IMG/VR virus record: IMGVR_UViG_3300042527_000477
Span: 1 to 51,543 of that record
DNA: 51,543 bases
Direction: 5' to 3' (one strand)
Source of the DNA: a virus
This document shows positions 1 to 42,397 of this stretch, piece after piece. The notes below the pieces were generated by a model. The model was given only the letters and a program-made list of their open reading frames with translations. It ran no database searches and was not told the origin of the DNA. The translations under genes and the position numbers were made by a program. The stretch's first letter is position 1. Each line of letters opens with the position of its first letter.

Positions 1-44
1 ATGGAAGAAATAGCCTCTACGTTGATACTGCTAATAGGACACAT
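1..44 (-). CDS. 5' end of a leftward small gene, cut by the window edge
   Basis: An ATG at 44 opens a minus-strand frame that stays open for 14 codons to the window edge, beginning MCPISSINVEAISS. It lies 34 bp downstream of a good leftward promoter (78-106), as expected for the next gene of the array to the left. The ribosome binding site is weak (TTGGTGA). Nothing can be said about function from so few residues. The call rests on position and promoter rather than on the protein. Confidence 0.45.
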   Translation of the reverse strand, partial: MCPISSINVEAISS

Positions 45-77
45 GATTTCACCAAGTGTGATTGGTTAGCAGTCGCC

Positions 78-106
78 AATATACTGTCAGTATCGGGTTT
101 TGTCAA
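78..106 (-). promoter_or_regulatory. sigma-70-type promoter for the gene off the left edge
   Basis: On the minus strand TTGACA is followed after 17 bp by TATATT. It lies just left of repeat element E1, the same arrangement as at the other promoters of the array. Confidence 0.7.
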
Positions 107-127
107 TAGAATGCTTGAGATTTTTCT

Positions 128-204
128 AAGTCTATGGCAGATAAGACTTTACGTCAAAACCGTGCGGCGGGCCTCGCCCTAAACTCTTGGGATACAAGAA
201 CTTA
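128..204 (-). repeat. 77-bp cassette-boundary element E1
   Basis: Plus-strand motifs are AAGTCTATG, AAGACTTTA, AAACTCTTG and AAGAACTTA in the invariant 9-6-9-29-9-6-9 spacing. This is among the most diverged copies, and its internal hairpin is weak. It lies 32 bp beyond the stop of the 237-644 gene, the largest such gap in the array. Confidence 0.85.
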
Positions 205-236
205 GAGCGAGAACCCTTTTCACCAACACGAGAAAA

Positions 237-644
237 TCAGAAGAGAAGACTAGCCAAGCCGGTCTTGAATGCTGCACCAGCCAGCAATGGCCTACGGCAG
301 TTCACCGTACGCTCAGCATAGAAGTTGCGAATCTTACCATCAGCAGTCTGGCACGTTACCAGATGATTGGTACGCACAAACTGGCTATCATGGCGACGAT
401 AGTTGCTACGAGCATTGAGTCTGCGAATAGCATTTTCGTCGAGAATATGAACACTCAGTACCTTTGCCAGAAAACGCTCGGGATCACCAGCGTTAGGCTG
501 AAGATATTCAAAGTTATAGAACTCTCCTGGCCTTGCGGTAGAGAGAGAACCATAAGCACCACCATAGATGCCATACACAGCAAACATAGCGAGGCAGCAA
601 ACAACAATCGTAGCAATCGAACCAAACAACATCACATCGTTCAT
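237..644 (-). CDS. small membrane-anchored protein of unknown function
   Basis: A 135-residue protein with one hydrophobic N-terminal segment at residues 5-28 (LFGSIATIVVCCLAMFAVYG), so probably anchored in the inner membrane with a soluble C-terminal part. The remainder contains a RPGEFYNFEYLQP stretch and many basic residues (RRLNARSNYRRHD), and ends in a Gly/Ala-rich tail. No catalytic motif is visible and the family is not recognised. The start is supported by a GAAAGGG ribosome binding site and by a promoter at 687-714. It is the leftmost complete gene of the left-arm array and is followed by element E1. Confidence 0.75.
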   Translation of the reverse strand: MNDVMLFGSIATIVVCCLAMFAVYGIYGGAYGSLSTARPGEFYNFEYLQPNAGDPERFLAKVLSVHILDENAIRRLNARSNYRRHDSQFVRTNHLVTCQTADGKIRNFYAERTVNCRRPLLAGAAFKTGLASLLF

Positions 645-686
645 AGAAACCCTTTCGTGTAGTGAAAACCAAACCTTACGTCGCCT

Positions 687-714
687 AGTATACTCTATTA
701 TCGACCATTGTCAA
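687..714 (-). promoter_or_regulatory. sigma-70-type promoter for the 237-644 gene
   Basis: TTGACA, 16-bp spacer, TATACT on the minus strand. The spacer contains GGTCGATAATAG, the CGATAATA motif shared by many promoters of this arm. Confidence 0.8.
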
Positions 715-723
715 GACCAATCT

Positions 724-930
724 TTAAGAAATCTCTTCGCACCCAGCCCTACAGTCCTTGACTTGGTTACTCTGGATACAACGCCACAACTTCCCAGTTG
801 CATGAATAGCCACGCAGTTCATGGCCCCATGAATCTTACAGTGTGGAGTAGCCGCCACTTTGGCGTGAGTAGACTTGATTTCCACCAAGTCGAAACGGCT
901 ATTGTTGTCGTTGATCGGCTGAATATTCAT
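724..930 (-). CDS. small Cys/His-rich, probably zinc-binding protein
   Basis: 68 residues with a Cys/His pattern resembling a zinc ribbon or knuckle: HCKIHGAMNC, then KLWRC, then DCRAGC. The HGAMNC...WRC arrangement recalls small phage zinc-ribbon proteins, but the exact family is not recognised. The ATG lies only 6 bp after the promoter's TAGAAT box, so the transcript probably starts at or next to the start codon, and no Shine-Dalgarno sequence is present. This looks like a leaderless mRNA. Its stop is followed directly by the promoter of the next gene, with no 77-bp element between them. Confidence 0.7.
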   Translation of the reverse strand: MNIQPINDNNSRFDLVEIKSTHAKVAATPHCKIHGAMNCVAIHATGKLWRCIQSNQVKDCRAGCEEIS

Positions 931-936
931 GCTTGT

Positions 937-964
937 ATTCTACTATCTATTATCGGCATGTCAA
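937..964 (-). promoter_or_regulatory. sigma-70-type promoter giving a near-leaderless transcript
   Basis: TTGACA, 16-bp spacer with GCCGATAATAG, TAGAAT. The -10 box ends 6 bp before the ATG at 930, so the expected +1 falls at the start codon. Confidence 0.8.
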
Positions 965-995
965 GCCCCATTTCTTGAAAAATCTTTTGTGCTGT

Positions 996-1072
996 AAGGT
1001 ATTGCGGCGTAAGAGTTTGCGTCAAATCGGGGCGGCCACCCGTGCCGCAAAGTCTTATGCAGCAAGGGTTTG
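996..1072 (-). repeat. 77-bp cassette-boundary element E2
   Basis: Motifs AAGGTATTG, AAGAGTTTG, AAAGTCTTA and AAGGGTTTG in 9-6-9-29-9-6-9 spacing. The hairpin arms around motif 3 (CCCGTGCCGC and GCAGCAAGGG) pair at 8 of 10 positions. The stop of the upstream gene at 1077 is 4 bp away. Confidence 0.95.
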
Positions 1073-1076
1073 TGGC

Positions 1077-1316
1077 TCACTCAAAATCCACAAAGATAAT
1101 CTGGTTATATCCTCGCGGCTTCACAGTGTATCCGTCACCATAATCGTAGGTGTCGGCCTTCACAGAGGTCATGTTCGCCAATGCCTTGGCCTGTCGAACA
1201 ACGCTACGCTGAGACTCTGCATTACGAGGAGAAAACTCATAACGCTTCACCCAACCATAGTTAGCCTCTCCACCAAACGTATCAGTAACCGTTACAACAC
1301 ACTTAGGTTGTCTCAT
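1077..1316 (-). CDS. small protein of unknown function
   Basis: About 79 residues starting MRQPKCVVTVTDTF. The start at 1316 is chosen over an upstream ATG at 1361 because AAGGAGA sits 8 bp in front of it and because 1361 would overlap the preceding gene. The C-terminal half is Tyr/Gly-rich (KADTYDYGDGYTVKPRGYNQ) and probably a small beta-rich domain. No family is recognised. It is the second gene of a two-gene unit with the zinc-ribbon gene at 1336-1539 and shares that gene's promoter at 1575-1603. It ends 4 bp before element E2. Confidence 0.75.
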   Translation of the reverse strand: MRQPKCVVTVTDTFGGEANYGWVKRYEFSPRNAESQRSVVRQAKALANMTSVKADTYDYGDGYTVKPRGYNQIIFVDFE

Positions 1317-1335
1317 CTTGTCTTTCTCCTTAGTA

Positions 1336-1539
1336 TTACCAACCACTACGACGAAACTCATCCGCTTCTTCCTGCTCTTCCCTACGCTGACGCCGAGTCA
1401 CCGGAGGGCCAAATCCCATATTGTAAGCATCAACCGCAGCCTCGTATGCTTCATCACCACCACTCTCACAATGCTCTCCGCACCGAGGGCAAATGTCCTG
1501 ACAATGAACCGGAACACCGCAGCAGTCACTAATAAACAT
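1336..1539 (-). CDS. small zinc-ribbon-like protein
   Basis: 67 residues. The N-terminal half is cysteine-rich (CCGVPVHCQDICPRCGEHCE), containing CPRC and HC pairs that could form one or two zinc knuckles. The C-terminal half is charged (RRQRREEQEEADEFRR). Short proteins of the form CCGxP...CxxCGEHCE are common in phages, and no precise function is known to me. It is preceded by GAGGAG and the promoter at 1575-1603, and is the first gene of a two-gene unit. Confidence 0.8.
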   Translation of the reverse strand: MFISDCCGVPVHCQDICPRCGEHCESGGDEAYEAAVDAYNMGFGPPVTRRQRREEQEEADEFRRSGW

Positions 1540-1574
1540 CTTCGTCTCCTCTTTCTTCTACTTCTTATATCGGT

Positions 1575-1603
1575 ATTCTACAGTGCGAAACTTGAGAAGT
1601 CAA
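1575..1603 (-). promoter_or_regulatory. sigma-70-type promoter for the 1336-1539 / 1077-1316 unit
   Basis: TTGACT, 17-bp spacer, TAGAAT. The CGATA motif is here immediately downstream of the -10 box (ACCGATATAAGA) instead of in the spacer. Confidence 0.75.
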
Positions 1604-1625
1604 TAGGTATTTTTTGTTTTGTTGC

Positions 1626-1702
1626 AACTGCTTATCGGACAAGAGTTTACGTCAAACGCGGGCGTGGCCTTGCAACGTAAAGTCTTACGTCGCATGGCTT
1701 TA
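1626..1702 (-). repeat. 77-bp cassette-boundary element E3
   Basis: Motifs AACTGCTTA, AAGAGTTTA, AAAGTCTTA and ATGGCTTTA with unchanged spacing. The arms GCCTTGCAACGT and ACGTCGCATGGC pair at 10 of 12 positions. The neighbouring stop codon is 2 bp away. Confidence 0.95.
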
Positions 1703-1704
1703 TG

Positions 1705-2139
1705 TCAGTTGAGATTAGAGCAGCCGTAGTCGTCAACCACCACTTCGCAACCCAGATTCTCCAGTTCCTTCACGGCCTTGAGAACATCTGCCTTTGCCCC
1801 CGTGATGGTGGCGGGGGTGCCAGCCACACCATCCTTCCATCGGTGTTCGTTGTTGTAGTATCCGTCCTTGCCCAGCACAATCTCGACGAAATCCTTTGCC
1901 TCACGCAGTCCGAATCTCAGCGTATTCTTGAACACGGCTATAGCCCTAACCTTGTGATCCTTGGGAACGTATCGCAGCGTCAGGTTCAGGCGATTGGTGT
2001 TGCCGACGTTGAGTCCGCGTCCCTTGAAGGCGTTCTCGATAGCGGTGGCGACATCGTCCCTCACATCCAGCGGGAGCGTGACGTTACGCAGCAGCAGCAG
2101 GGCGTTGGTGATCGAAAGGGTCAGGGCGATGGTGTCCAT
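1705..2139 (-). CDS. L7/L12 C-terminal-domain-like protein
   Basis: 144 residues. The C-terminal half (about residues 62-140) has the pattern of the ribosomal protein bL12 C-terminal domain: a KVRAIAVFKN strand, then LRFGLREAKDFVE matching the GLKEAKDLVE helix, then after an insertion KADVLKAVKELENLGCEVVV matching the helix and final strand. The N-terminal 60 residues look alpha-helical and are not recognised. bL12 genes are known in viruses; here only the C-terminal domain resembles bL12, so a role in binding translation GTPases is possible but inferred. AAGGA precedes the ATG and the promoter is at 2176-2204. Followed 2 bp later by element E3. Confidence 0.75.
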   Translation of the reverse strand: MDTIALTLSITNALLLLRNVTLPLDVRDDVATAIENAFKGRGLNVGNTNRLNLTLRYVPKDHKVRAIAVFKNTLRFGLREAKDFVEIVLGKDGYYNNEHRWKDGVAGTPATITGAKADVLKAVKELENLGCEVVVDDYGCSNLN

Positions 2140-2175
2140 TGTGAATCCTTGTGATGATGGTGTTGTGATAAGCGT

Positions 2176-2204
2176 ATTCTACTACCTATTATCGGCATTG
2201 TCAA
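2176..2204 (-). promoter_or_regulatory. sigma-70-type promoter for the L7/L12-like gene
   Basis: TTGACA, 17-bp spacer beginning ATGCCGATAATAG, TAGAAT. It is a model example of the array's promoter type, with an A-tract (GATTTTTTCAAGAAAA on the minus strand) upstream of -35. Confidence 0.85.
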
Positions 2205-2225
2205 GTGGTTTTCTTGAAAAAATCT

Positions 2226-2302
2226 AAGTCGTTACCAGATAAGAGTTTATGAAAAATGGGGCCGTGGCCTTGCAGCGTAAAGTGTTACGCCACAGGGCTT
2301 TA
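2226..2302 (-). repeat. 77-bp cassette-boundary element E4
   Basis: Motifs AAGTCGTTA, AAGAGTTTA, AAAGTGTTA and AGGGCTTTA in standard spacing. The arms GCCTTGCAGCGT and ACGCCACAGGGC pair at 10 of 12 positions, counting one G-U pair. The neighbouring stop is 2 bp away. Confidence 0.95.
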
Positions 2303-2304
2303 GA

Positions 2305-2370
2305 TCATCTAGTCTTAGAGTCGTTCATTTTCTTTAAGGCTTCAACGATCATAGGAATACCGTCAAACAT
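2305..2370 (-). CDS. 21-residue peptide, last gene of a five-gene operon
   Basis: The frame MFDGIPMIVEALKKMNDSKTR starts 3 bp after the stop of the preceding peptide gene, with GGGG upstream as a weak ribosome binding site, and ends 2 bp before element E4. It is predicted helical and amphipathic. Length and position in a tightly packed operon support it, but it has no recognisable function and is too short for certainty. Confidence 0.5.
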   Translation of the reverse strand: MFDGIPMIVEALKKMNDSKTR

Positions 2371-2373
2371 GAT

Positions 2374-2448
2374 TCACCCCATAAGAAAAGTTGCGATACA
2401 ACCACAGATAAACGCCACAGAGAGCACGATCTTATTCTTATTGGTCAT
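2374..2448 (-). CDS. 24-residue single-pass membrane peptide
   Basis: MTNKNKIVLSVAFICGCIAT plus four residues: a short basic head followed by one hydrophobic segment, so an inner-membrane peptide with its N-terminus probably in the cytoplasm. AAGGAAG precedes the ATG at good spacing, and the start is 1 bp from the upstream stop. It belongs to a five-gene operon transcribed from 2977. Confidence 0.6.
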   Translation of the reverse strand: MTNKNKIVLSVAFICGCIATFLMG

Positions 2449-2449
2449 C

Positions 2450-2554
2450 TTACTTCCTTAATGGAAAAACAAGATCACAAACAAACCAAGCACAACCAAG
2501 GCCAACAACAAATCCCACACCGAAACTATTCCAGTCTAAATAGATATCGGCCAT
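2450..2554 (-). CDS. 34-residue single-pass membrane peptide
   Basis: Begins MADIYLDWNSFGVGFVVGLG, continues with a hydrophobic Cys/Trp/Val stretch and ends FPLRK. One membrane span of about 20 residues followed by a basic C-terminus suggests N-out, C-in topology. It is preceded by AAGGAAAGGG 6-10 bp before the ATG and packed between two other small genes of the same operon. Family unknown. Confidence 0.6.
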   Translation of the reverse strand: MADIYLDWNSFGVGFVVGLGCAWFVCDLVFPLRK

Positions 2555-2569
2555 CCGTAGCCCTTTCCT

Positions 2570-2713
2570 TTAGTTATACTTCATCCGAACCATCATCTGA
2601 ACAATCTCAGGACGAGTCATCACACACTCCCACATGTACCACTTACAGAAGTTGAGCCAACCCTGCTCAGTAATCTGTCCACGCTGAAACATAGTCCACA
2701 TGGTTTGATACAT
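2570..2713 (-). CDS. 47-residue Trp/Met-rich protein
   Basis: Starts MYQTMWTMFQRGQITEQGWL and contains NFCKWYMWECVMTRPE. It is rich in Trp and Met with helical character, and the hydrophobic residues are spread out and not in one membrane-length block. The ribosome binding site AAGGATTAGGTGA is 6-14 bp upstream, and the gene fits exactly between neighbours in the operon. No family assigned. A small early phage protein acting on a host enzyme is possible but unsupported. Confidence 0.65.
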   Translation of the reverse strand: MYQTMWTMFQRGQITEQGWLNFCKWYMWECVMTRPEIVQMMVRMKYN

Positions 2714-2721
2714 TTTATCAC

Positions 2722-2940
2722 CTAATCCTTACTATATCCACACAAAAACTTCTCGCCCTTATCATTAAAACCCACAAAGGCACCCTCTTCGTCAAATAAC
2801 CTTTTTAGTTCTTCAAGATCACTAGCCGTTACCCTATATCTCCAAGAGTTACCATCCAGAGTTTCCATAACCCAAGAGATAAAACACCCCAGACCAATAA
2901 CTCCGACAATCCCCACAAACCACAACAGTATTTCACTCAT
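2722..2940 (-). CDS. 72-residue membrane protein, first gene of the five-gene operon
   Basis: The N-terminal residues 4-24 are a clear membrane span (ILLWFVGIVGVIGLGCFISW). The soluble C-terminal part contains an acidic helix (ASDLEELKRLFDEEGAF) and a NDKGEKFLCGY end. The ATG at 2940 lies 9 bp after the TAGAAT box of promoter 2950-2977, so the transcript would have a leader of only about 2-3 nt and no Shine-Dalgarno sequence. The four downstream peptide genes have ordinary ribosome binding sites. Function unknown. Confidence 0.7.
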   Translation of the reverse strand: MSEILLWFVGIVGVIGLGCFISWVMETLDGNSWRYRVTASDLEELKRLFDEEGAFVGFNDKGEKFLCGYSKD

Positions 2941-2949
2941 ATCTGCACC

Positions 2950-2977
2950 ATTCTACCTTTCAAAGAGCCTTTGTCAA
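2950..2977 (-). promoter_or_regulatory. sigma-70-type promoter of the five-gene operon
   Basis: TTGACA, 16-bp spacer, TAGAAT. This promoter lacks the CGATAATA motif, and the first gene starts almost at +1. Confidence 0.75.
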
Positions 2978-3019
2978 GTCCCGACTATTTGGCTGACTAC
3001 AGCACAGTTAGCAACCCGA

Positions 3020-3223
3020 TTACATCGGGTGAGACAGATGGATGGTCAACCCTTCGCACTGTTCCAGATAGCACGACCTATACTTACCCTCTTCGATCTT
3101 CACGATCATCAAATGACCCTTGGGCTTGTCGTACACTCGACGAACCTCACCCGCAAAGTCCTTACCATGATACTTGAAACTCACGTTGTCATGACGCACA
3201 GGAACCAGCACAGCATCGCTCAT
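3020..3223 (-). CDS. small SH3-like protein of unknown function
   Basis: 67 residues from ATG 3223 (MSDAVLVPVRHDNVSFKYHG). A longer upstream reading is rejected because it would run through the promoter at 3252-3280, whereas GAGGAG sits just before 3223. The sequence alternates hydrophobic and charged residues (FAGEVRRVYDKPKGHLMIVKI), as in a small beta-barrel. No active-site motif. Its 3' end faces the promoter at 2950-2977 with no 77-bp element between. Confidence 0.7.
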   Translation of the reverse strand: MSDAVLVPVRHDNVSFKYHGKDFAGEVRRVYDKPKGHLMIVKIEEGKYRSCYLEQCEGLTIHLSHPM

Positions 3224-3251
3224 ATCTTCTCCTCGTTGTTGAATACCATCA

Positions 3252-3280
3252 AGTCTACATCTATTATCGGCATTTGTCAA
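3252..3280 (-). promoter_or_regulatory. sigma-70-type promoter for the 3020-3223 gene
   Basis: TTGACA, 17-bp spacer containing TGCCGATAATAG, TAGACT. Confidence 0.8.
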
Positions 3281-3313
3281 GGCTCGCCATTAGACAAATA
3301 GTTTTTGTGTCAT

Positions 3314-3390
3314 AACGTGTTGAAGCATAAGAGTTTGCGAGAAATGCGGGCGGTCGGCCTTGCTGCAAAGTGTTGTGCAGCAAGGCTTTA
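3314..3390 (-). repeat. 77-bp cassette-boundary element E5
   Basis: Motifs AACGTGTTG, AAGAGTTTG, AAAGTGTTG and AAGGCTTTA in standard spacing. This copy has the perfect form of the internal hairpin: GCCTTGCTGCA (3357-3367) pairs over 11 of 11 bases with TGCAGCAAGGC (3376-3386) around an 8-nt loop. Confidence 0.97.
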
Positions 3391-3456
3391 GGGTCAGTAG
3401 TCAGACTGATCGAAGTCGAGATCAGCGCTCTCGACGCTCTCGTCTTCCCCATCCCA

Positions 3457-3594
3457 CTACTCATCATCATCGTCACAATCGTCACGATGGTAGCAATCCT
3501 CATCACGCTCGTCGTCGTACCAGCGATCCTCGTCGCCGGTCCAGCCGCCGATATAGGATTCCATGAAAGAGTCGAGGTAAGAGTCTTCGAACAT
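3457..3594 (-). CDS. 45-residue acidic protein, possibly truncated by an amber codon
   Basis: Starts MFEDSYLDSFMESYIGGWTG behind a strong AAGGAGA site and promoter 3631-3659, and ends CDDDDE at a TAG (3457-3459). The same frame continues past the TAG for 20 more codons (WDGEDESVESADLDFDQSDY) to a TGA at 3394, which lies 3 bp from element E5, as expected for a cassette's true stop. The extension is equally acidic. Either the gene carries a nonsense mutation or the amber codon is sometimes read through. It resembles the acidic, Asp/Tyr-rich protein at 4459-4698. A role as a DNA-mimic or anti-repressor-like protein is speculation from charge alone. Confidence 0.65.
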   Translation of the reverse strand: MFEDSYLDSFMESYIGGWTGDEDRWYDDERDEDCYHRDDCDDDDE

Positions 3595-3630
3595 AGCGCG
3601 TTCTCCTTGGGGGTTGGTGATGATGTTCGT

Positions 3631-3659
3631 ATTCTACAAAGTATTATCGGCATTGTCAA
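3631..3659 (-). promoter_or_regulatory. sigma-70-type promoter for the acidic protein gene at 3594
   Basis: TTGACA, 17-bp spacer starting ATGCCGATAATA, TAGAAT. Confidence 0.85.
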
Positions 3660-3680
3660 GAGGATTTCTTGAAAAAATCT

Positions 3681-3757
3681 AAGTTGTTGTGCTGTAAGAG
3701 TTTGCGTCAAACGCGGGCGGCGGGCCTTGGCGTAAAGTGTTACGCTTCAAGGCTTTA
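3681..3757 (-). repeat. 77-bp cassette-boundary element E6
   Basis: Motifs AAGTTGTTG, AAGAGTTTG, AAAGTGTTA and AAGGCTTTA in standard spacing. The hairpin pairs GCCTTG with CAAGGC and GCGT with ACGC, with a 2-nt bulge. The neighbouring stop is 3 bp away. Confidence 0.95.
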
Positions 3758-3760
3758 GGC

Positions 3761-4084
3761 TCAGACGGGAGCAACCACCCAATCGGGGGTCACGATCATC
3801 CGATCCTCGAACGGAGTACCATCGCTGAGGAACCATTCGTAGTTCTTCTGGTACACTCGCACCGGGCTATACTTGTTGATACGATCCTTCGTGGTGCTTG
3901 TATGCCAGCCGCCGCTATTGAGCATCACACTATCGTCGGGATAAATCACCACAACATTTGTTCCGTGCAGTTCGATGGCAACGCTACCATCGGCCTGAAT
4001 GTATGCGTAGGTGTTGTTGCCAATCTTACGCTGGCCACGATTTCGCTTGCCCAAAACCATCTTAGTCGCTTCGGCGTGAGTCAT
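3761..4084 (-). CDS. conserved-looking small phage protein
   Basis: 107 residues, MTHAEATKMVLGKRNRGQRK at the N-terminus, then a predicted beta-rich body with NNTYAYIQADGSVAIELHGT, VVVIYPDDSVMLNSGGWHT and TTKDRINKYSP. Proteins with this 'V.LHxTxVVxxxPDxxVxLNSGGWxTxTTKDRxN' pattern recur in unrelated phages, so it is probably an authentic conserved family, but I know no function for it. It has AAGGAAAAG before the ATG and its own promoter (4120-4148), whose -35 box overlaps the stop codon of the upstream gene. Element E6 follows 3 bp after its stop. Confidence 0.8.
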   Translation of the reverse strand: MTHAEATKMVLGKRNRGQRKIGNNTYAYIQADGSVAIELHGTNVVVIYPDDSVMLNSGGWHTSTTKDRINKYSPVRVYQKNYEWFLSDGTPFEDRMIVTPDWVVAPV

Positions 4085-4119
4085 GTTCTTTTCCTTCTGG
4101 GTGATGTTCTCTTATCGAC

Positions 4120-4148
4120 ATTTTACAGGCCGAGACTTCAACTGTCAA
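4120..4148 (-). promoter_or_regulatory. sigma-70-type promoter for the 3761-4084 gene
   Basis: TTGACA, 17-bp spacer, TAAAAT, with TGTCGATAAGAG immediately downstream of -10. The -35 TTGACA contains the TGA stop of the upstream 46-residue gene. Confidence 0.8.
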
Positions 4149-4285
4149 CACCTGATGTGTCGCACCATGATATAGGCCATAGCGTCCGACTCATTATAGA
4201 AAGAGCAGATCATCATGGGCGGCCGACCGTTTACGAACGTCCTGTAATAGTCATACATACGGGTTTGCCAGTTGTAGCGAATCAT
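4145..4285 (-). CDS. 46-residue Tyr/Met-rich protein
   Basis: Begins MIRYNWQTRMYDYYRTFVNG, continues RPPMMICSFYNESDAMAYIM and ends VRHIRC. AAGGAACACAAA precedes the ATG and promoter 4320-4347 drives it. A compact alpha/beta fold is plausible from the alternation, with no known family. The gene and the promoter of the next gene overlap by 4 bp, so the left arm is compact. Confidence 0.7.
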   Translation of the reverse strand: MIRYNWQTRMYDYYRTFVNGRPPMMICSFYNESDAMAYIMVRHIRC

Positions 4286-4319
4286 TTTGTGTTCCTTGTG
4301 GATGTGTTCTCTTATCGAC

Positions 4320-4347
4320 ATTCTACACTCTATTATCGGCCTGTCAA
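4320..4347 (-). promoter_or_regulatory. sigma-70-type promoter with two CGATAA sites
   Basis: TTGACA, 16-bp spacer with GCCGATAATAG, TAGAAT, then TGTCGATAAGAG directly downstream. This is the only promoter of the array with both versions of the site. Confidence 0.85.
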
Positions 4348-4378
4348 TAGGTTTTCTTGAAAAAATGTTTTTTGCTGT

Positions 4379-4455
4379 AAGTCATTAGCAGATAAGAGTT
4401 TACGTCAAACGTGCGCGGCCCGCCTCGCCGCAAAGTCTTATGCGGCAAGGCTTTA
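4379..4455 (-). repeat. 77-bp cassette-boundary element E7
   Basis: Motifs AAGTCATTA, AAGAGTTTA, AAAGTCTTA and AAGGCTTTA in standard spacing. The arms GCCTCGCCGCA and TGCGGCAAGGC pair at 10 of 11 positions. The neighbouring stop is 3 bp away. Confidence 0.95.
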
Positions 4456-4458
4456 GGG

Positions 4459-4698
4459 CTAGTAGTCCTCTCCGCCGAAATAACCGTAATCCTCATCCGT
4501 TCCCCATCCGGCAGATTCCATCGCGGAGTCGTGGTCGCCATCCATGCTATCATCGTAATCGTCTTCATCGGTGAAGTCATCGAACTCTGGCGAATCATCC
4601 TCAAAATCATCAAAATGATTCTTTCGATCCCACGCGGGCGAGATGGATTCGTCGTGAAAATCGTTATAATCGTCATAAAGGGGATCAGGGTGACTCAT
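4459..4698 (-). CDS. small, very acidic protein
   Basis: About 79 residues from ATG 4698 (MSHPDPLYDDYNDFHDESIS), with Asp/Glu/Tyr-rich tracts such as FEDDSPEFDDFTDEDDYDD and a C-terminal DEDYGYFGGEDY. It is probably disordered. AAAGGAC lies upstream of the start, and a GTG one codon earlier is less likely. Charge and Tyr content resemble the acidic gene at 3457-3594. Strongly acidic small phage proteins sometimes mimic DNA, but nothing here proves that. Its normal TAG stop shows that amber is used as a stop in this phage. Confidence 0.75.
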   Translation of the reverse strand: MSHPDPLYDDYNDFHDESISPAWDRKNHFDDFEDDSPEFDDFTDEDDYDDSMDGDHDSAMESAGWGTDEDYGYFGGEDY

Positions 4699-4753
4699 CA
4701 CTTAGTCCTTTGCAAGAGTACACATACACAAACCAACATAGGCCATAACGAAC

Positions 4754-4782
4754 AGCATAGCACTAAACATAGTTTTTGTCAA
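4754..4782 (-). promoter_or_regulatory. sigma-70-type promoter for the acidic protein gene
   Basis: TTGACA, 17-bp spacer, TATGCT. The -35 overlaps the TGA stop of the upstream gene. No CGATAA motif. Confidence 0.7.
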
Positions 4783-4958
4783 GCCTCCACGATTTCGGGA
4801 TAAATATCTTCGACCAGAATCTCAGCCAGACCCGTGACTTCCGCCCAATCCATCGGGTGACACGTCGGCTCGTCAATCGGCTCGACCATCGGCTCCAGCG
4901 TACCCTGCTCGGCCAGTTGTGCCAGAATCGCGTTCACATCGTCGAAGTTGTTGAGCAT
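4779..4958 (-). CDS. 59-residue acidic protein of unknown function
   Basis: Starts MLNNFDDVNAILAQLAEQGT, with an amphipathic helix, then a Pro/Glu-rich middle (LEPMVEPIDEPTCHPMDW) and a hydrophobic-acidic C-terminus (LAEILVEDIYPEIVEA). CGGAGAACG precedes the ATG and promoter 4987-5014 is upstream. It is likely cytoplasmic and may be an adaptor-sized protein. No family recognised. Confidence 0.7.
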   Translation of the reverse strand: MLNNFDDVNAILAQLAEQGTLEPMVEPIDEPTCHPMDWAEVTGLAEILVEDIYPEIVEA

Positions 4959-4986
4959 CGTCGTTCTCCGTTGGGGTGATACTCGG

Positions 4987-5014
4987 ATTCTACATACTAT
5001 TATCGGCCTGTCAA
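4987..5014 (-). promoter_or_regulatory. sigma-70-type promoter for the 4779-4958 gene
   Basis: TTGACA, 16-bp spacer with GGCCGATAATAG, TAGAAT. Confidence 0.8.
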
Positions 5015-5046
5015 TACCCTTTTCTTCAAAAAATCTTTTTTGTTGT

Positions 5047-5123
5047 AACTCGTTGAACGATAAGAGTTTAGGTCGAGCGTGGCCGCGGAGCCTCGTCGCA
5101 AAGTGTTGTGCGACAAGGACTTG
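5047..5123 (-). repeat. 77-bp cassette-boundary element E8
   Basis: Motifs AACTCGTTG, AAGAGTTTA, AAAGTGTTG and AAGGACTTG in standard spacing. The hairpin uses GTCGCA/TGCGAC where other copies use GCTGCA/TGCAGC or GCCGCA/TGCGGC, a compensatory change. The upstream stop is 20 bp away. Confidence 0.95.
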
Positions 5124-5143
5124 GGATCAATCGCCCCGGCCTG

Positions 5144-5368
5144 TCAACCACAATAACTGTTCGTCAAATCTGGCCACACCAACGGAGCGTCAACCCAGCA
5201 CTCGTTAGGGTTTGGTGTGATGGTAACGACAGAAGGATTTTCGGGGAAGCGAACCCGATACATAGCCTCCCGATACTCATTGCCGGGGATGATATCGACC
5301 ACCACAGCCCTTTGGTCAGGATTGCCGATCCGCGAACCAACCATAACTTTGCTGCCGATATTGATCAT
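5144..5368 (-). CDS. small KOW/SH3-like protein (paralogue 1)
   Basis: 74 residues from ATG 5368 (MINIGSKVMVGSRIGNPDQR). A reading that starts further upstream would cross the promoter at 5397-5424, so it is rejected. The M-[IF]-x-IG-[SD]-[KR]-V-x-[VI/L]-G opening followed by AVVVDIIPG...AMYRVRFPE is the pattern of a small SH3/KOW-like barrel. Two neighbours, 5421-5615 and 6182-6367, share it, and DII/DIL-P...REAMYRVRF/RVAMYRVQF is shared with the first of them. The three are probably duplicates. Function unknown; a nucleic-acid or protein-binding role would be typical for the fold. Confidence 0.75.
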   Translation of the reverse strand: MINIGSKVMVGSRIGNPDQRAVVVDIIPGNEYREAMYRVRFPENPSVVTITPNPNECWVDAPLVWPDLTNSYCG

Positions 5369-5396
5369 GTTTTGCTCTTTCTTTTGTGTTGGATGG

Positions 5397-5424
5397 ATTG
5401 TAGACGATTTTTTCAGATTGTCAA
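5397..5424 (-). promoter_or_regulatory. sigma-70-type promoter for the 5144-5368 gene
   Basis: TTGACA, 16-bp spacer, TACAAT. It overlaps the 3' end of the paralogous gene 5421-5615 and has no CGATAATA motif. Confidence 0.7.
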
Positions 5425-5615
5425 TCCCATCCGTAGGGCTGATCAACAAACGGGCCATAGATCATGCCTTCGTCAAGCCAACGCTGGCTAGCATCGGAGT
5501 CAAACTGCACCCGATACATAGCGACACGATCACCGATAGCGGGCAGAATGTCCGTCACCGTGGCCCATGCCAAATCCGAACCAATCTGCACCCGGTCACC
5601 AATGTTGAACATCAT
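5421..5615 (-). CDS. small KOW/SH3-like protein (paralogue 2)
   Basis: About 64 residues (MMFNIGDRVQIGSDLAWATV at the start), with VTDILPAIGDRVAMYRVQF and a C-terminal EGMIYGPFVDQPYGWD. GAGAGGACG lies before two adjacent ATGs (5615 and 5612), and either could be used. The opening FNIGDRVQIGS and the MYRVxF strand pair it with 5144-5368, and it stands directly upstream of that paralogue, suggesting tandem duplication. Promoter at 5641-5668. Confidence 0.75.
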   Translation of the reverse strand: MMFNIGDRVQIGSDLAWATVTDILPAIGDRVAMYRVQFDSDASQRWLDEGMIYGPFVDQPYGWD

Positions 5616-5640
5616 CGTCCTCTCTTTCTTCTGTACCACT

Positions 5641-5668
5641 ATTCTACCATACATTATCGTCCTGTCAA
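5641..5668 (-). promoter_or_regulatory. sigma-70-type promoter for the 5421-5615 gene
   Basis: TTGACA, 16-bp spacer with GGACGATAATG, TAGAAT. Confidence 0.8.
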
Positions 5669-5699
5669 TACCTTTTTCTTGAAAAATCTTTTTTGTCGC

Positions 5700-5776
5700 A
5701 AATCCTTATGTCACAAGAGTTTACGTCAAGCGTGGGCGGCCGCGTTCGCCGTAAAGTCTTACGGCACAACGCTTTG
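5700..5776 (-). repeat. 77-bp cassette-boundary element E9
   Basis: Motifs AAATCCTTA, AAGAGTTTA, AAAGTCTTA and AACGCTTTG in standard spacing. The hairpin arms have GCGTT with AACGC in place of the usual GCCTT with AAGGC, a second clear compensatory change, plus GCCGT with ACGGC. The upstream stop is 17 bp away. Confidence 0.95.
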
Positions 5777-5793
5777 CGATTAGTGTACGGATG

Positions 5794-6123
5794 TCACCCC
5801 TCCGCGAAGGGGGAGACTTCCTCGCCGCAGGCAAGGATAGCGGCATACTGTTGTGCCAGAGCCGCCTTGCGTTCGAGCGAACCCGGCTTGCCAACCTTCA
5901 CGATCATCAAATCGTCACCCCCCTTGTAGCGGGGATCGGCCTTTTCGGCCTTAGTCTTACCAGCACGACGGAGAGCCTTGCGATTGAACTTCAGCACCTT
6001 CTCGCTACGGATCGGGCCATACGCACCATCGGCCAGGGTCGGCTGGTGAGGGATTGCGATGCCGAGAAAGCACAACCGAGCCTGACGCTTGGCATCTTCG
6101 ATGATCTTGAACTTGGTGGCCAT
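5794..6123 (-). CDS. basic small protein of unknown function
   Basis: 109 residues, MATKFKIIEDAKRQARLCFL at the start, with a basic centre (KFNRKALRRAGKTKAEKADPRYKGG) and DDLMIVKVGKPG followed by a helical tail. The high Lys/Arg content fits nucleic-acid binding, but there is no recognised fold. Promoter 6157-6185 overlaps the stop of the upstream KOW-like gene. Followed by E9. Confidence 0.75.
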   Translation of the reverse strand: MATKFKIIEDAKRQARLCFLGIAIPHQPTLADGAYGPIRSEKVLKFNRKALRRAGKTKAEKADPRYKGGDDLMIVKVGKPGSLERKAALAQQYAAILACGEEVSPFAEG

Positions 6124-6156
6124 TGTCGTTTTCCTCTTGGTGGTAGTGATGAACGT

Positions 6157-6185
6157 ATTTTACAGAAACTTTTTTACCGCGTCAA
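6157..6185 (-). promoter_or_regulatory. sigma-70-type promoter for the 5794-6123 gene
   Basis: TTGACG, 17-bp spacer, TAAAAT. The -35 contains the TGA stop of gene 6182-6367. Confidence 0.7.
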
Positions 6186-6367
6186 CCCCCACTTCCGCAG
6201 GACGCTTCCCATTCGTGCGGAATATAGCCATTGAGAATCTCTTGGGTCGAACACTCACAGCGAACACCCGCCAGATCGACCACCCACACATCACCCTCGT
6301 CGAAATACCATCCGACGATCACGCCAGAGATACCACCGAGCCGAACCTTATCGCCAATCTCGAACAT
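6182..6367 (-). CDS. small KOW/SH3-like protein (paralogue 3)
   Basis: 61 residues, MFEIGDKVRLGGISGVIVGW at the start, with DEGDVWVVDLAGVRCECS and a Cys/Gly-rich end. The opening matches the two KOW-like neighbours at 5144-5368 and 5421-5615. The rest is shorter and diverged. GAGGAGAACGC lies before the ATG, with the promoter at 6407-6434. Function unknown. Confidence 0.75.
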   Translation of the reverse strand: MFEIGDKVRLGGISGVIVGWYFDEGDVWVVDLAGVRCECSTQEILNGYIPHEWEASCGSGG

Positions 6368-6406
6368 CTTGCGTTCTCCTCTTTCTCTCTTACTTCTTAT
6401 ATCGAC

Positions 6407-6434
6407 ATTATACAGCGTATTCTTTAGGTTGCAA
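6407..6434 (-). promoter_or_regulatory. sigma-70-type promoter for the 6182-6367 gene
   Basis: TTGCAA, 16-bp spacer, TATAAT (consensus -10), with TGTCGATATAAG immediately downstream. Confidence 0.75.
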
Positions 6435-6524
6435 GCAAAATCTAGAGATTTTTATGTCAAGAAATTTTGACAAAACTTTTTAGCATTTCTTGTCGTTTTG
6501 GCACGATATTTGCTAGATCGACGT

Positions 6525-6601
6525 AAGTTATTGCCTCATAAGACTTTACATCAAACGCCGCCGCCACCGCTCGACGTAAAGTCTTGCGGCTATTGGGTTT
6601 A
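6525..6601 (-). repeat. 77-bp cassette-boundary element E10
   Basis: Motifs AAGTTATTG, AAGACTTTA, AAAGTCTTG and TTGGGTTTA in standard spacing. The inner pair forms a perfect 10-bp inverted repeat (AAGACTTTAC / GTAAAGTCTT). The TAA stop of the neighbouring gene (6599-6601) lies inside motif 4. Confidence 0.92.
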
Positions 6602-6814
6602 CGTTGCGTGGATGAAAACCTTATCACTCGTGGTCTGATTCGTGATGGTCACGATCCAGTTGCGACCACTACCATCCTCACGCATGATACCGTTGACGAG
6701 GCCAGCATACACCCTGCCCTTCGGGTCGATCACGCTAGTATACTTACCAGCGACCATAGATGCGAAGATGGTGCTGAGGCTATTCTTACGGGCGGCGTAT
6801 GCAGTGCCAAACAT
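6599..6814 (-). CDS. 71-residue protein of unknown function
   Basis: MFGTAYAARKNSLSTIFASM at the start, then YTSVIDPKGRVYAGLVNGIM and RNWIVTITNQTTSDKVFIHA, a likely small beta-sheet protein. AAGGAAAAAG is just upstream and the gene starts 11 bp after the stop of 6826-7050, so the two form an operon from promoter 7083-7110. No family recognised. Its stop codon is embedded in element E10. Confidence 0.72.
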   Translation of the reverse strand: MFGTAYAARKNSLSTIFASMVAGKYTSVIDPKGRVYAGLVNGIMREDGSGRNWIVTITNQTTSDKVFIHAT

Positions 6815-6825
6815 TTTCTTTTTCC

Positions 6826-7050
6826 TTATCGGGCTACGGCAATCATACCATTGAAATGCGAGAAAGTCAACGTGAGAACCCTATCGGGATACTTCTCATT
6901 GATGTACTTCTGTGCAGTAGCCTTACGGTTATCCGTAGCACCAACGTACTGAACAACCGTACCATCGGCATCGGTCACTTTCCAAACCTTTTTCTGCACG
7001 ATACGCGGAAGGCTGTTGATGAAGTCGTTAGTGTGAATCGTCTTTTCCAT
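6826..7050 (-). CDS. 74-residue protein, possible small alpha/beta fold
   Basis: MEKTIHTNDFINSLPRIVQK at the start, then VWKVTDADGTVVQYVGATDN, RKATAQKYINEKYPDRV and LTLTFSHFNGMIAVAR. The order strand-strand-helix-strand is suggested by residue pattern. No catalytic motif. First gene of a two-gene unit; AAAGAGAGAAAG lies before the ATG. Confidence 0.72.
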   Translation of the reverse strand: MEKTIHTNDFINSLPRIVQKKVWKVTDADGTVVQYVGATDNRKATAQKYINEKYPDRVLTLTFSHFNGMIAVAR

Positions 7051-7082
7051 TTTCTTTCTCTCTTTCTTACTCTATTATCGAC

Positions 7083-7110
7083 ATTATACGGGCGAATCCT
7101 TTAGGGTCAA
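7083..7110 (-). promoter_or_regulatory. sigma-70-type promoter for the 7050/6814 unit
   Basis: TTGACC, 16-bp spacer, TATAAT, followed by TGTCGATAATAGAG. Confidence 0.8.
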
Positions 7111-7144
7111 GTGAAAAGTTTCCTGAAAGTTTCGTAAGGTTCGT

Positions 7145-7221
7145 AAGTGCTTGTGATATAAGAGTTTACAGCAAACGCGGGCGCCCCGGCTTGACGTAAA
7201 GTCAATAGCCTAAAGGGTTTA
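7145..7221 (-). repeat. 77-bp cassette-boundary element E11
   Basis: Motifs AAGTGCTTG, AAGAGTTTA, AAAGTCAAT (diverged) and AAGGGTTTA in standard spacing. Instead of the standard arms it has TTGAC-GTAAA-GTCAA, a tight hairpin on motif 3, extended by GGCT/AGCC. An extra CGTAAGG half-motif lies just left of the element, as at E12. Confidence 0.93.
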
Positions 7222-7223
7222 GG

Positions 7224-7508
7224 TCAGCCGATCCGCTCGGCCATAACCTTGCCAGCCTTGAACCGCACCACCCGACGCTCACCGATCATCACACTCTCCC
7301 CCGTTCGGGGGTTGCGAGCCTTGCGAGGGGCGGTAACCTTCACGGTGAACACGCCGAAGTTTCGCAGTTCGATCCGACCGGTCGTGGCGAGCGTCTCGAT
7401 CATGCTGTCGAGCGTAGCCTGCACGATCTCGCGGGCCTGATCGCCCGTCACGCCAACCTTCTCCGCGATACCCTCAACCATGCTTCGCTTCGTTCCGACC
7501 ATTTTCAT
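7224..7508 (-). CDS. HU/IHF-family DNA-binding protein
   Basis: 94 residues. After a helical dimerisation half (GTKRSMVEGIAEKVGVTGDQ, with two helices), residues 46-60 read GRIELRNFGVFTVKV and the arm carries ARNPRTGE, the hallmark of the HU/IHF beta-arm with its proline. The end VVRFKAGKVMAERI matches the family's C-terminal helix. It should bend or bridge DNA as a dimer. As the only clear architectural DNA-binding protein within the repeat array, it is a possible cofactor at the 77-bp elements (inference). Promoter at 7531-7559. The start could be 7508 or 7502. E11 follows 2 bp after the stop. Confidence 0.93.
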   Translation of the reverse strand: MKMVGTKRSMVEGIAEKVGVTGDQAREIVQATLDSMIETLATTGRIELRNFGVFTVKVTAPRKARNPRTGESVMIGERRVVRFKAGKVMAERIG

Positions 7509-7530
7509 CGTCTCCAGTGGTGATGTCGCT

Positions 7531-7559
7531 ATTCTACCGAAAGTTTTTCAGCCTGTCAA
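7531..7559 (-). promoter_or_regulatory. sigma-70-type promoter for the HU-like gene
   Basis: TTGACA, 17-bp spacer, TAGAAT. No CGATAATA motif. Confidence 0.8.
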
Positions 7560-7577
7560 TCCCCCCTTATATGGGGA

Positions 7578-7793
7578 TCATGAGACGCCCATCCAAGCCG
7601 CGTTCTCAACGCAGTAATCGTAGAACATATCGTTCAGCACGGCCTCGAAGTTGCTTTCCGTGAGCCTGCGACGATCACCCGTGAAGTCACACTCCGCGAA
7701 CAGCCGACCGTCCGGCGTGAACACCAACACCACATGATACGTCTCGCTACCCCAGATAGCCTTGAGAGCGTCGTTCACCTTGCTCTTGTCCAT
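7578..7793 (-). CDS. 71-residue protein of unknown function
   Basis: Starts MDKSKVNDALKAIWGSETYH at ATG 7793 behind AGAGAGGA. A longer reading would pass through the promoter at 7825-7853. It contains VVLVFTPDGRLFAECDF and an aromatic C-terminal helix (NDMFYDYCVENAAWMGVS). Small alpha/beta protein, family unknown. No element lies between it and the HU gene promoter. Confidence 0.72.
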   Translation of the reverse strand: MDKSKVNDALKAIWGSETYHVVLVFTPDGRLFAECDFTGDRRRLTESNFEAVLNDMFYDYCVENAAWMGVS

Positions 7794-7824
7794 CGTATCC
7801 TCTCTTTCTTTCTCTGTTATCGAC

Positions 7825-7853
7825 ATTTTACCATCCCAAACTTCAACTGTCAA
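7825..7853 (-). promoter_or_regulatory. sigma-70-type promoter for the 7578-7793 gene
   Basis: TTGACA, 17-bp spacer, TAAAAT, followed by TGTCGATAACAGAG. Rightmost promoter of the array. Confidence 0.8.
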
Positions 7854-7886
7854 TAAAAAACTTCCTTAAAAGATCGTAAGGTTCGT

Positions 7887-7963
7887 AAGTCCTTATCCTA
7901 CAAGACTTTGGCACGACCCTTGCGCCTGAAACTCGTCGTAAAGTCTTACGCCACAACACTTTA
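7887..7963 (-). repeat. 77-bp cassette-boundary element E12, with no gene attached
   Basis: Motifs AAGTCCTTA, AAGACTTTG, AAAGTCTTA and AACACTTTA in standard spacing. Preceded by an extra CGTAAGG. Unlike the other eleven it has no credible gene ending near it: to its right is the composition junction. It therefore marks the outer end of the array. Confidence 0.92.
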
Positions 7964-8092
7964 GAGCAAGAGGGGGTTTTTTCATTTTTCTCGGCCCATT
8001 TATAAAATCACAAAAAATCGCCGGGTGGTCCAAACAAAATTGGCGCCATCTAAAATAATTGGCCGGTTTATTAGCCACTTTCCCCTAAGTTT
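7964..8092. other. non-coding junction between the GC-rich and AT-rich arms
   Basis: About 130 bp with no convincing gene. It holds G and T runs (GAGGGGGTTTTTTCATTTTT) and several restriction-like palindromes (GGCGCC, GGCCGG). A frame that could be read across it runs into element E12 and has no ribosome binding site. Base composition changes here from the GC-richer left arm to the AT-rich right arm. Confidence 0.6.
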
Positions 8093-8128
8093 TAAAAAAA
8101 AGAGCAGGCACCAACATGATGCCCGCTC
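8093..8128 (-). terminator. intrinsic terminator of the 8682-8159 operon
   Basis: On the minus strand GAGCGGGCA, a 9-nt loop, TGCCTGCTC (one G-U pair), then a run of eight T. It lies about 30 bp beyond the stop at 8159. The plus strand has only four T after the stem, so it is mainly a leftward terminator. Confidence 0.9.
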
Positions 8129-8158
8129 CTTTTGAATCAACAATTAGTTATCAGGAAT

Positions 8159-8449
8159 CTAATAGTTGTATCTTATCCAGTTATAATTTACAGGATAATT
8201 ATAGTAACCATATGGATAATAGATCACAGGCTGCTGTACTACTACTGGATATGTTACATACTGAGGTCTAATAACAGGAACCCACACTGTTTCTGTGTAT
8301 ACCACAGGACTATAAACCACACTATAGTTTACAACAGGAGATGCTACTACTGGCTGAGTCACAATTTCATTTCTAACAAATGAACGATGACCACACCAAT
8401 CTGCACCACAACAACAAAACAACAATAGTGCTAATAACATACTTTTCAT
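8159..8449 (-). CDS. secreted or lipoprotein-like Tyr/Val-rich protein
   Basis: 96 residues. MKSMLLALLLFCCCGADWCG is a short signal peptide with a Cys cluster that could serve as a lipobox (LLLFC or LFCC). The mature part is almost entirely Val, Tyr, Pro and Thr in strand-like repeats (VVNYSVVYSPVVYTETVWVPV, then YPVVVQQPVIYYPYGYY), so an extended surface or envelope protein. It overlaps the upstream gene by 4 bp (ATGA) and ends 30 bp before the terminator. Family unknown. Confidence 0.7.
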   Translation of the reverse strand: MKSMLLALLLFCCCGADWCGHRSFVRNEIVTQPVVASPVVNYSVVYSPVVYTETVWVPVIRPQYVTYPVVVQQPVIYYPYGYYNYPVNYNWIRYNY

Positions 8450-8682
8450 ATTTGGCCATTTTCCCCGTTAGTAGCCATAGCAACTGCTGGTCCATTCTTT
8501 CTTGGGCGACCACGCTGCTTTTTAATATTTAGCTTGCGTCTTTGACGTCTAATCATAGCAGTGCTAATATTTTGGCCAGTCATCTGACTCAACTTGGCAC
8601 TCAGTTCAAGATCATTCATAGTATTATGATTTTCCCTAACAAAACCTAGTTCACTTTCTGTCCATTTTTTATAATTAGCCAT
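8446..8682 (-). CDS. putative DNA-binding protein, Myb/SANT-like plus AT-hook
   Basis: 78 residues. The N-terminal part (WTESELGFVRENHNTMNDLE, with Trp spacing and three predicted helices) resembles SANT/Myb-like or HTH modules seen in phage DNA-binding proteins. Residues 55-63 contain KKQRGRPRKN, an AT-hook core GRPRK that binds the minor groove of AT-rich DNA. First gene of a leftward two-gene unit next to the divergent start of the rightward operon, so a regulator of that region is plausible. It is AT-rich, unlike the array to its left. Confidence 0.72.
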   Translation of the reverse strand: MANYKKWTESELGFVRENHNTMNDLELSAKLSQMTGQNISTAMIRRQRRKLNIKKQRGRPRKNGPAVAMATNGENGQI

Positions 8683-8765: not shown

Positions 8766-8918
8766 ATGACCGAACAGCCCTTAAATATAGTAGCATCAAC
8801 GCTTGATGTTAGAGCATCTGGTCTGCAATATGACCCTCAAGATGACTTAAATTTACCAGACGGTAAAAGCATAGCCGAATTATTAAATGAGCAAAAAGAA
8901 AAAAACAATAGCAAATAA
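8766..8918 (+). CDS. 50-residue protein opening the rightward operon
   Basis: Starts MTEQPLNIVASTLDVRASGL behind a strong AAGGAG, continues QYDPQDDLNLPDGKSIAELL and ends in a Lys/Asn-rich tail. It overlaps the following sigma-factor gene by 32 bp, suggesting translational coupling. Acidic and small, it could be a partner of the sigma factor (for example a co-factor or anti-sigma), but that is inferred only from position. Confidence 0.7.
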   Translation: MTEQPLNIVASTLDVRASGLQYDPQDDLNLPDGKSIAELLNEQKEKNNSK

Positions 8919-9534
8919 TAATAAAGTTTCTGAAAGCGAGTTTCTAGAAGTATTAGACAATATTAGTAAAAGGTTAGTTCATAAATTTAAATTTGGCTAT
9001 CACGATATTGATGATATGAAACAACAGGCCGCTATATTCGCTCTAGAAGGCTTAGAGAAATATGACAATAGTCGCCCATTAGAAAACTTCTTATGGACGC
9101 ACGTTCGTAATCGACTATTTAATTACAAGCGTAATAACTATCAAAGGCCCGATAAACCATGCTTAAACTGTCCACTTTACGATCCTACATATCGCAATAG
9201 CACCAGTCAATGTTCAAAATATAGCAACAAGAAAAACTGTGAACTATATGCTGCCTGGAGCAATCGTAATGAAAATAAGAAAAATATAATGCAGCCTAGC
9301 TATATTGATTATGATATTGAGCATAAAAATGATTTGGAGCATTTGATACAAAATAATGAAATAATAAAATTTCTTGATGAAAATATCCATGCTGATTATA
9401 GAGAATACTATTTACGATTAAAGCATGGAGAAAAATTAAATAAAAGTAAACTTACCAAACTGCAAAAACACATTAAAGACCTTATGGAGAGCGAGCTGTG
9501 GACAAAAAGATCCCTAAAAAACGAGGACAGCTAA
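8887..9534 (+). CDS. divergent sigma-70-family factor with Cys4 insert
   Basis: 215 residues. Residues 40-83 match sigma region 2: DIDDMKQQAAIFALEGLEKYD followed by ENFLWTHVRNRLFNYKR, the pattern YD...F..W...RNR..NY that contacts core RNA polymerase and melts the -10 element. Directly after come C92, C95, C109 and C118 (CLNC...C...C), a probable zinc-binding insert. A canonical region 4 is not evident, although the C-terminal 70 residues are helical. Likely role: directing host RNA polymerase to phage late promoters. It stands at the head of the structural gene block. Overlaps genes on both sides. Confidence 0.75.
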   Translation: MSKKKKTIANNNKVSESEFLEVLDNISKRLVHKFKFGYHDIDDMKQQAAIFALEGLEKYDNSRPLENFLWTHVRNRLFNYKRNNYQRPDKPCLNCPLYDPTYRNSTSQCSKYSNKKNCELYAAWSNRNENKKNIMQPSYIDYDIEHKNDLEHLIQNNEIIKFLDENIHADYREYYLRLKHGEKLNKSKLTKLQKHIKDLMESELWTKRSLKNEDS

Positions 9535-42379: not shown

Positions 42380-42397
42380 ATATACTGAGGTATTATA

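Follow-up and report, generated by a model that had tools for sequence, protein, structure and literature searches.

The left 8 kb of the IMG/VR virus record IMGVR_UViG_3300042527_000477 (linear, 51,543 bp; this whole stretch is called the window) carry small genes on the minus strand, and between these genes lie 12 copies of a 77-bp element built of four boxes. The copies, to which no strand is assigned, are found at 128-204, 996-1072, 1626-1702, 2226-2302, 3314-3390, 3681-3757, 4379-4455, 5047-5123, 5700-5776, 6525-6601, 7145-7221 and 7887-7963. Copy 7 is nearest to the consensus of the family, box 3 of copy 11 is degraded (AAAGTCAAT), and copy 12, the upstream-most in the direction of transcription, has no abutting gene stop; other phages have its outer flank, GCAAGAGGGGGTTTT, in the corresponding position.

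An earlier inspection of the letters alone (the sequence-only reading) had described the copies as four 9-bp motifs with the spacing 9-6-9-29-9-6-9, and both the positions and the spacing were verified in all 12. The literal motif proposed there, AAGnnnTT[AG], fared less well than the geometry, since motifs 1, 2 and 4 keep it in 7/12, 12/12 and 7/12 copies, respectively, and motif 3 has the form AAAGTSTTR in 10 of the 12. Motifs 2 and 3 are inverted copies of each other, as had been claimed, and so are motifs 1 and 4, i.e. the four motifs form two inverted pairs. Chance does not explain the recurrence: the inner-pair pattern AAGASTTTR-N29-AAAGTSTTR, with at most 3 mismatches, matches the window 26 times (the 12 elements read on both strands and one chance pair) against 0.99 matches expected, and none of 100 dinucleotide shuffles reaches 26.

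For the anatomy, positions were numbered q0-q77 in the orientation of transcription. All four boxes are then versions of one motif, TYGNCG-TAAANNCTTA, which runs forward in boxes 4 and 2 and backward in boxes 3 and 1. A putative operator is built of a 10-bp box, (TYGNCG)TAAANNCTTA, and its inverted copy, with a free spacer of 5 bp between them. The two palindromic sites are centred at q12 and q65, i.e. 53 bp or 5.05 helical turns apart, with a GC-rich middle between them. The boxes are conserved, and the 5-nt spacers are hypervariable (94 and 67 variants among 182 copies) and differ even where the junctions are otherwise conserved. A conserved G.G asymmetry of the inner boxes gives the element a weak polarity; its direction relative to the genes is mixed, and the genes within an array are almost all co-directional.

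The element stands in a close relation to the ends of the genes. Where a clear open reading frame (ORF) precedes a copy, its stop codon lies at most 5 bp from q0 in about two thirds of cases, either at -3, -4 or -5 or in the form of the element's own TAA. At one border of the array, the first element has a promoter but adjoins the end of no gene; at the other, the last gene (DUF932) has an intrinsic terminator of its own ahead of its element.

Distribution and fixed length of the element

A scan for the fixed geometry in viral IMG/VR contigs gave, besides the window, 49 stretches in 38 contigs of up to 175 kb. The model search that the sequence-only reading had proposed was carried out on these related loci with a gap-tolerant nhmmer profile, and it returned 333 full-length places, a count that is inflated by overlapping loci, with 203 distinct sequences. 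Not a single insertion or deletion was seen among the 203, and partial-only places numbered 5, of which 2 are at contig ends. The absence of length changes, together with the free spacers and the conserved boxes, indicates recognition with a fixed spacing. The element is most likely a pair of protein-binding sites on one face of the helix.

Searches outside these contigs yielded essentially nothing. No match was found in 50,697 phage records, and Rfam has nothing at the element. Among 84,980 species genomes the fixed-geometry scan gave a single match, in a Flavobacterium metagenome-assembled genome, which we take as chance because the reversed control pattern matches that genome more often and because there is no array there. 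A loose inner-pair pattern with a variable gap was also run on viral contigs, and nearly all among the matches listed are single chance matches. Within these searches the earlier statement that no described element has this geometry holds.

The element was found only in phages and in one array per genome, where it precedes nearly all of the putative early genes. Its copies fall within one region in two long records (135.5-154.1 kb in G002 and 17.6-34.6 kb in G004, regions of roughly 17-19 kb), and a genome has about 10-25 copies and about as many (10-25) small co-directional genes. In the 175-kb record the array makes up the last 16 kb. Three phages also have single operators immediately beyond the array border, close to or overlapping promoter-like sequences; in the 175-kb record a profile scan found no operator outside the array.

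The base composition of the array is distinct: 48% GC in positions 1-8000 of the window versus about 33% in the rest of it, and the array of the 175-kb record is also GC-richer. This suggests that the array has another origin or that its module genes come from a shared pool. An assignment of hosts from the terminase was dropped, as its matches are all distant (22-33% identity; mostly to Bacillus, one to a Microcystis phage).

Promoters, helical phase and the form in which the element would be read

Downstream of the element lies a promoter of the form TTGACA-17-TAnAAT, often with an A/T-rich, UP-like leader. In the window a sigma70-type promoter is found on one side of 12/12 elements, in 11 of them with the -35 hexamer beginning 20-33 bp past the element. 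These promoters, all on the minus strand, are at 78-106 (TTGACA-17-TATATT, 20 bp past the element), 937-964 (30 bp), 1575-1603 (21 bp), 2176-2204 (20 bp), 3252-3280 (32 bp), 3631-3659 (20 bp), 4320-4347 (30 bp), 4987-5014 (31 bp), 5641-5668 (30 bp), 7083-7110 (33 bp) and 7825-7853 (32 bp). The exception is copy 10, where a promoter-like site at 6407-6434, on the same strand, begins 89 bp past the element and a sigma54-like site is nearer. For 67% of the copies across the family, a strict scan finds a promoter past the element that points the same way as the genes, versus 11-22% for the other directions.

It is conspicuous that the distances from the element to the -35 hexamer cluster, over the family, at 19-21, 28-34 and 40-44 bp, i.e. 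one helical turn apart. With a loose control for redundancy the phasing is strong (Rayleigh p ~1e-7, n=43 leaders), and with strict redundancy filters the values are p ~2e-4 at n=27 and p ~0.01 at n=17. Tandem operators such as those of lambda (OR/OL) and GalR (OE/OI) are likewise palindromic sites next to a promoter, with whole helical turns between them, and whole-turn spacing is what we see here, both between the centres (53 bp) and towards the -35 hexamer (20, 30-33 or 41 bp). The present case differs in that about 10-25 co-located copies per genome share an identical 53-bp spacing and are traded between phages. The class I activator position of CRP was also considered: the centres of box 1 fit it (-60.5, -71, -81.5) but the centres of the operators (-68, -79, -89) do not, and we make no claim to such a position.

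Two further sequence features were noted in the array loci. The sequence GCCGATAATAG is conserved between the -35 and -10 hexamers in many array promoters (e.g. 2176-2204, 3631-3659 and 4320-4347) and is possibly a second regulatory site. Sigma54-like sites (TGGCAYN5TTGCT) occur 52 times in 507 kb of array loci versus 1.3 times in shuffles; 28 of the 52 are inside 60 bp of an element, and roughly half of these are directed at it. Examples are 6499-6514 (+) in the window and, in other loci, L130:7309, L143:12226, L128:466 and L162, among others. Such a site is present at some of the elements that lack a sigma70 promoter nearby.

The sequence-only reading had left two possibilities, namely that a protein or a folded single strand reads the distance. 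Covariation was calculated on 181 gap-free copies (effective number ~58). For the long hairpin of the attC type, pairs outside the box cores covary below chance (z = -5.1); a shorter local hairpin covaries weakly (z = 2.2, with one clearly covarying pair), and other hairpins do not covary. The complementarity of the outer boxes with each other, and of the inner boxes with each other, follows from the fact that each box is nearly palindromic. In other words, the protein half of the proposal is the better supported one, by the 53-bp centres and the phase of the -35 hexamer, and the folded-strand half finds no support in the covariation. The rigid geometry, the promoter phase and the absent covariation together argue for double-stranded DNA that is read by a protein.

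The same data bear on an RNA-level explanation, in which the element would provide each gene with a terminator or a 3'-end processing hairpin. Its location between a stop codon and the next promoter agrees with such a role, as do the weakly covarying short hairpin and a mean folding energy moderately below that of mononucleotide shuffles (-29.2 versus -23.6). On the other hand, the element has no consistent fold, no U-tract directly follows it, no Rfam family covers it, the last array gene is served by a canonical terminator distinct from, and ahead of, its element, and the first element follows no adjacent gene. Moreover, terminators are not expected to keep a rigid length. We regard this explanation as improbable.

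Exchange of modules at the element

The units between the elements fall into 76 families, and their order, presence and neighbours vary among contigs. Module genes can be nearly identical in phages that are otherwise diverged: the HU-type DNA-binding protein (7224-7508, minus strand) and a Kyanoviridae Gp96 family gene (3761-4084, minus strand) are 98-100% and 97-100% identical, respectively, in several other phages, whereas the adjacent core proteins, i.e. a helix-turn-helix (HTH) protein of 78 amino acids and a sigma-like protein, are 55-64% identical in the phages that share such modules (97-100%).

The breakpoints of these swaps were mapped with a gap-aware scan, since 1-nt indels in the leaders made a gap-intolerant one push several events to the edge of its range. 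There are 2-12 breakpoints per 10 bp within the element versus 1-2 outside, with a maximum of 11.6 at box 1. Phages that share the upstream gene also have the first part of the element in common, and in those that share the downstream module the identity begins at box 1; we infer that comparisons from the left show the leftmost event and comparisons from the right the rightmost one. Single events were placed at q0-10, q32-50, q63-80 or in the promoter region, so that the overall spread is q0-q80. Such scatter does not indicate one crossover bond, and is compatible with homology-driven exchange that recurs at any point of the element. RecA, SSB and DNA polymerase III alpha are all encoded by the 175-kb record itself.

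The breakpoints throughout the element, the modules common to diverged phages and the RecA of the 175-kb record could also be taken to mean that the element is nothing but a recombination hot spot, i.e. a linker repeat that is homogenised by gene conversion and has no protein reader. This would predict uniform conservation and tolerated indels, whereas we see invariant boxes, random spacers and an absolute length, which makes it a decidedly improbable account.

Another explanation is an integron-like one, in which a gene and its 3' element form a mobile cassette that a tyrosine-type recombinase moves at the box pairs, as IntI does at attC. There is a single array per genome with one element per module, most gene stops are at most 5 bp from the element, the element is inherited together with the gene before it and the next module begins at box 1, modules were recently transferred among diverged phages, and the box-n5-box unit can be likened to a core recombination site. 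One-to-two-gene modules bounded by a bipartite inverted-repeat site, and exchangeable, are indeed common to both systems. Phage-borne attC arrays without an integrase (CALINs) exist (PMC9892861), and no integrase was found alongside the present arrays either: PF00589, the tyrosine recombinase family that includes IntI, was absent from 16 records, several of which are fragments.

The details differ, however. Neither R' (GTTRRRY) nor R'' (RYYYAAC) is present, as box 1 ends in (A)CTTA followed by C or G, with no GTT. The bottom-strand hairpin of attC, with R''-R' and L''-L' pairing, is the one for which covariation was below chance. In place of a terminal structure of variable length the centre is always 28-29 bp, without indels in 203 copies, and in place of a single crossover at R' the breakpoints are spread with a peak at box 1. 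Nearly every module has a promoter of its own, the phase of which would be left without explanation, and the elements are in mixed orientation relative to the genes. Serine recombinases were not found in 19 records, the 175-kb and 159-kb ones included. The arms are inverted as in core sites of the dif/loxP type, but the identical overlap of 6-8 bp is missing; the spacers differ between copies, which speaks against ordinary double-strand exchange, as that requires the overlaps to be identical. As for the Y1 transposase (PF01797) that accompanies REP/BIME elements as TnpA-REP, 19 records gave one sub-threshold match. An attC identity, which had been raised by the geometry, the position after stop codons and the identity profiles, was thus weakened by the breakpoints, the covariation and the recombinase searches. 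Membership among integron attC sites is not supported, and we consider a recombinase-driven cassette of this kind unlikely.

The closest resemblance in position is to the PeSL (promoter early stem-loop) cassettes of T4-type phages (Arbiol et al. 2010; Comeau et al. 2014), as far as they are described in the summary in PMC4503421. In both cases a composite element lies between the end of a small gene and the early-type promoter of the next one, and in both there is modular shuffling in a hypervariable region, here with breakpoints in the element. A promoter preceded by a conserved intergenic element is found in 67% of our copies and in 12/12 in the window; early timing is a prediction. The PeSL of that summary contains a stem-loop terminator, whereas ours is a palindromic operator pair of 77 bp and absolute length, lacking covariation, a consistent fold and a U-tract, phase-locked to its promoter and accompanied by a separate terminator at the last gene. 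Position and evolutionary behaviour match PeSL and the anatomy does not, so the element is not a PeSL member; nor do we claim that these phages are T4-like.

A looser parallel is offered by the Campylobacter group II phages CP21 and CP220, in which repeat units of 72-86 bp, arranged in tandem clusters with a 13-bp core between modules of 28-55 kb, are thought to mediate the rearrangement of modules (PMC4546147). The size of the repeats and their link to module rearrangement in large phages are similar. Here, by contrast, single four-box copies separate gene modules of 0.3-1.5 kb.

Neighbouring genes, proposed function and significance

Two genes are conserved beside the start of the array and adjoin it in about 30 related loci. 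One, at 8446-8682 (minus strand), is the 78-aa predicted HTH protein, which has an AT-hook-like tail, always lies beside the array start and is a candidate binder of the element; it has no relative among the 50,697 phage records. Its HTH fold is predicted, but it has no significant PDB match and bears a likeness to small terminases, so as a regulator it stays a candidate. The other, at 8887-9534 (plus strand), is a 215-aa protein with weak similarity to sigma-70 region 2. A sub-threshold Rfam match to the L20 leader (28 bits) at 8090-8180 (minus strand), over a stretch resembling an intrinsic terminator, is probably chance. At the other end of the window a frame (42389-51543, plus strand) stays open for over 9 kb and runs off the contig end without a stop; it probably encodes a giant structural or tape-measure-like protein, and the 175-kb relative has a frame of 5,986 aa.

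We favour, with moderate confidence, the view that the 77-bp element is a phase-locked double-operator regulatory element of an early-gene array that doubles as a seam for module shuffling. A dedicated DNA-binding protein, encoded by the phage or its host, would occupy both operators on one helix face and would either activate or silence the strong, UP-element-like sigma70 promoter 20, 30-33 or 41 bp downstream. The rigid length would then be due to the fact that one inserted base would rotate the operators against each other and against RNA polymerase. The elements would form the common regulatory node of the small co-directional genes, which are probably early host-takeover genes. Since the same element stands at both ends of every module, exchange between elements would shuffle modules with their control intact; such homology-driven recombination, whichever enzyme or pathway carries it out, may move modules within and between phages, and incoming modules would stay under common control by way of the shared paired operators.

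Several observations speak against this view. About a third of the copies have no clear sigma70 promoter inside 150 bp, and the strictest leader filters leave 13-17 independent leaders for the phasing (p 0.01-0.03). The array promoters look strong without an activator. A regulatory site has no need to lie exactly at the stop codons of genes, and the inheritance of the element is tied more closely to the upstream gene than to the promoter on which it would act. Finally, no cognate binding protein was found, the nearest conserved candidate being the 78-aa HTH protein, which also resembles a small terminase fold and gave no significant structural match. A further idea is that the elements are substrates of an unrecognised cassette-recombination system, borne by phage or host, in which the same protein would control the promoters and synapse the elements. 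Such a system would be the phage equivalent of integrons, with paired palindromic core sites, and would swap modules between distant phages; we think it rather unlikely.

Judged from the sequences compared here, large uncultured phages of one family carry the array, and its genes are traded among distant relatives. This family keeps a swappable pool of small genes in one array whose modules nearly all have a common, proposed regulatory seam, so that new genes would arrive already wired to the same control. The fixed-spacing pattern provides a sequence handle for finding such modules across metagenomes, and with it hundreds of probable host-takeover genes with defined boundaries. It also suggests a link between the regulation of promoters and the exchange of modules, in viruses without cultured relatives among the phage records searched.

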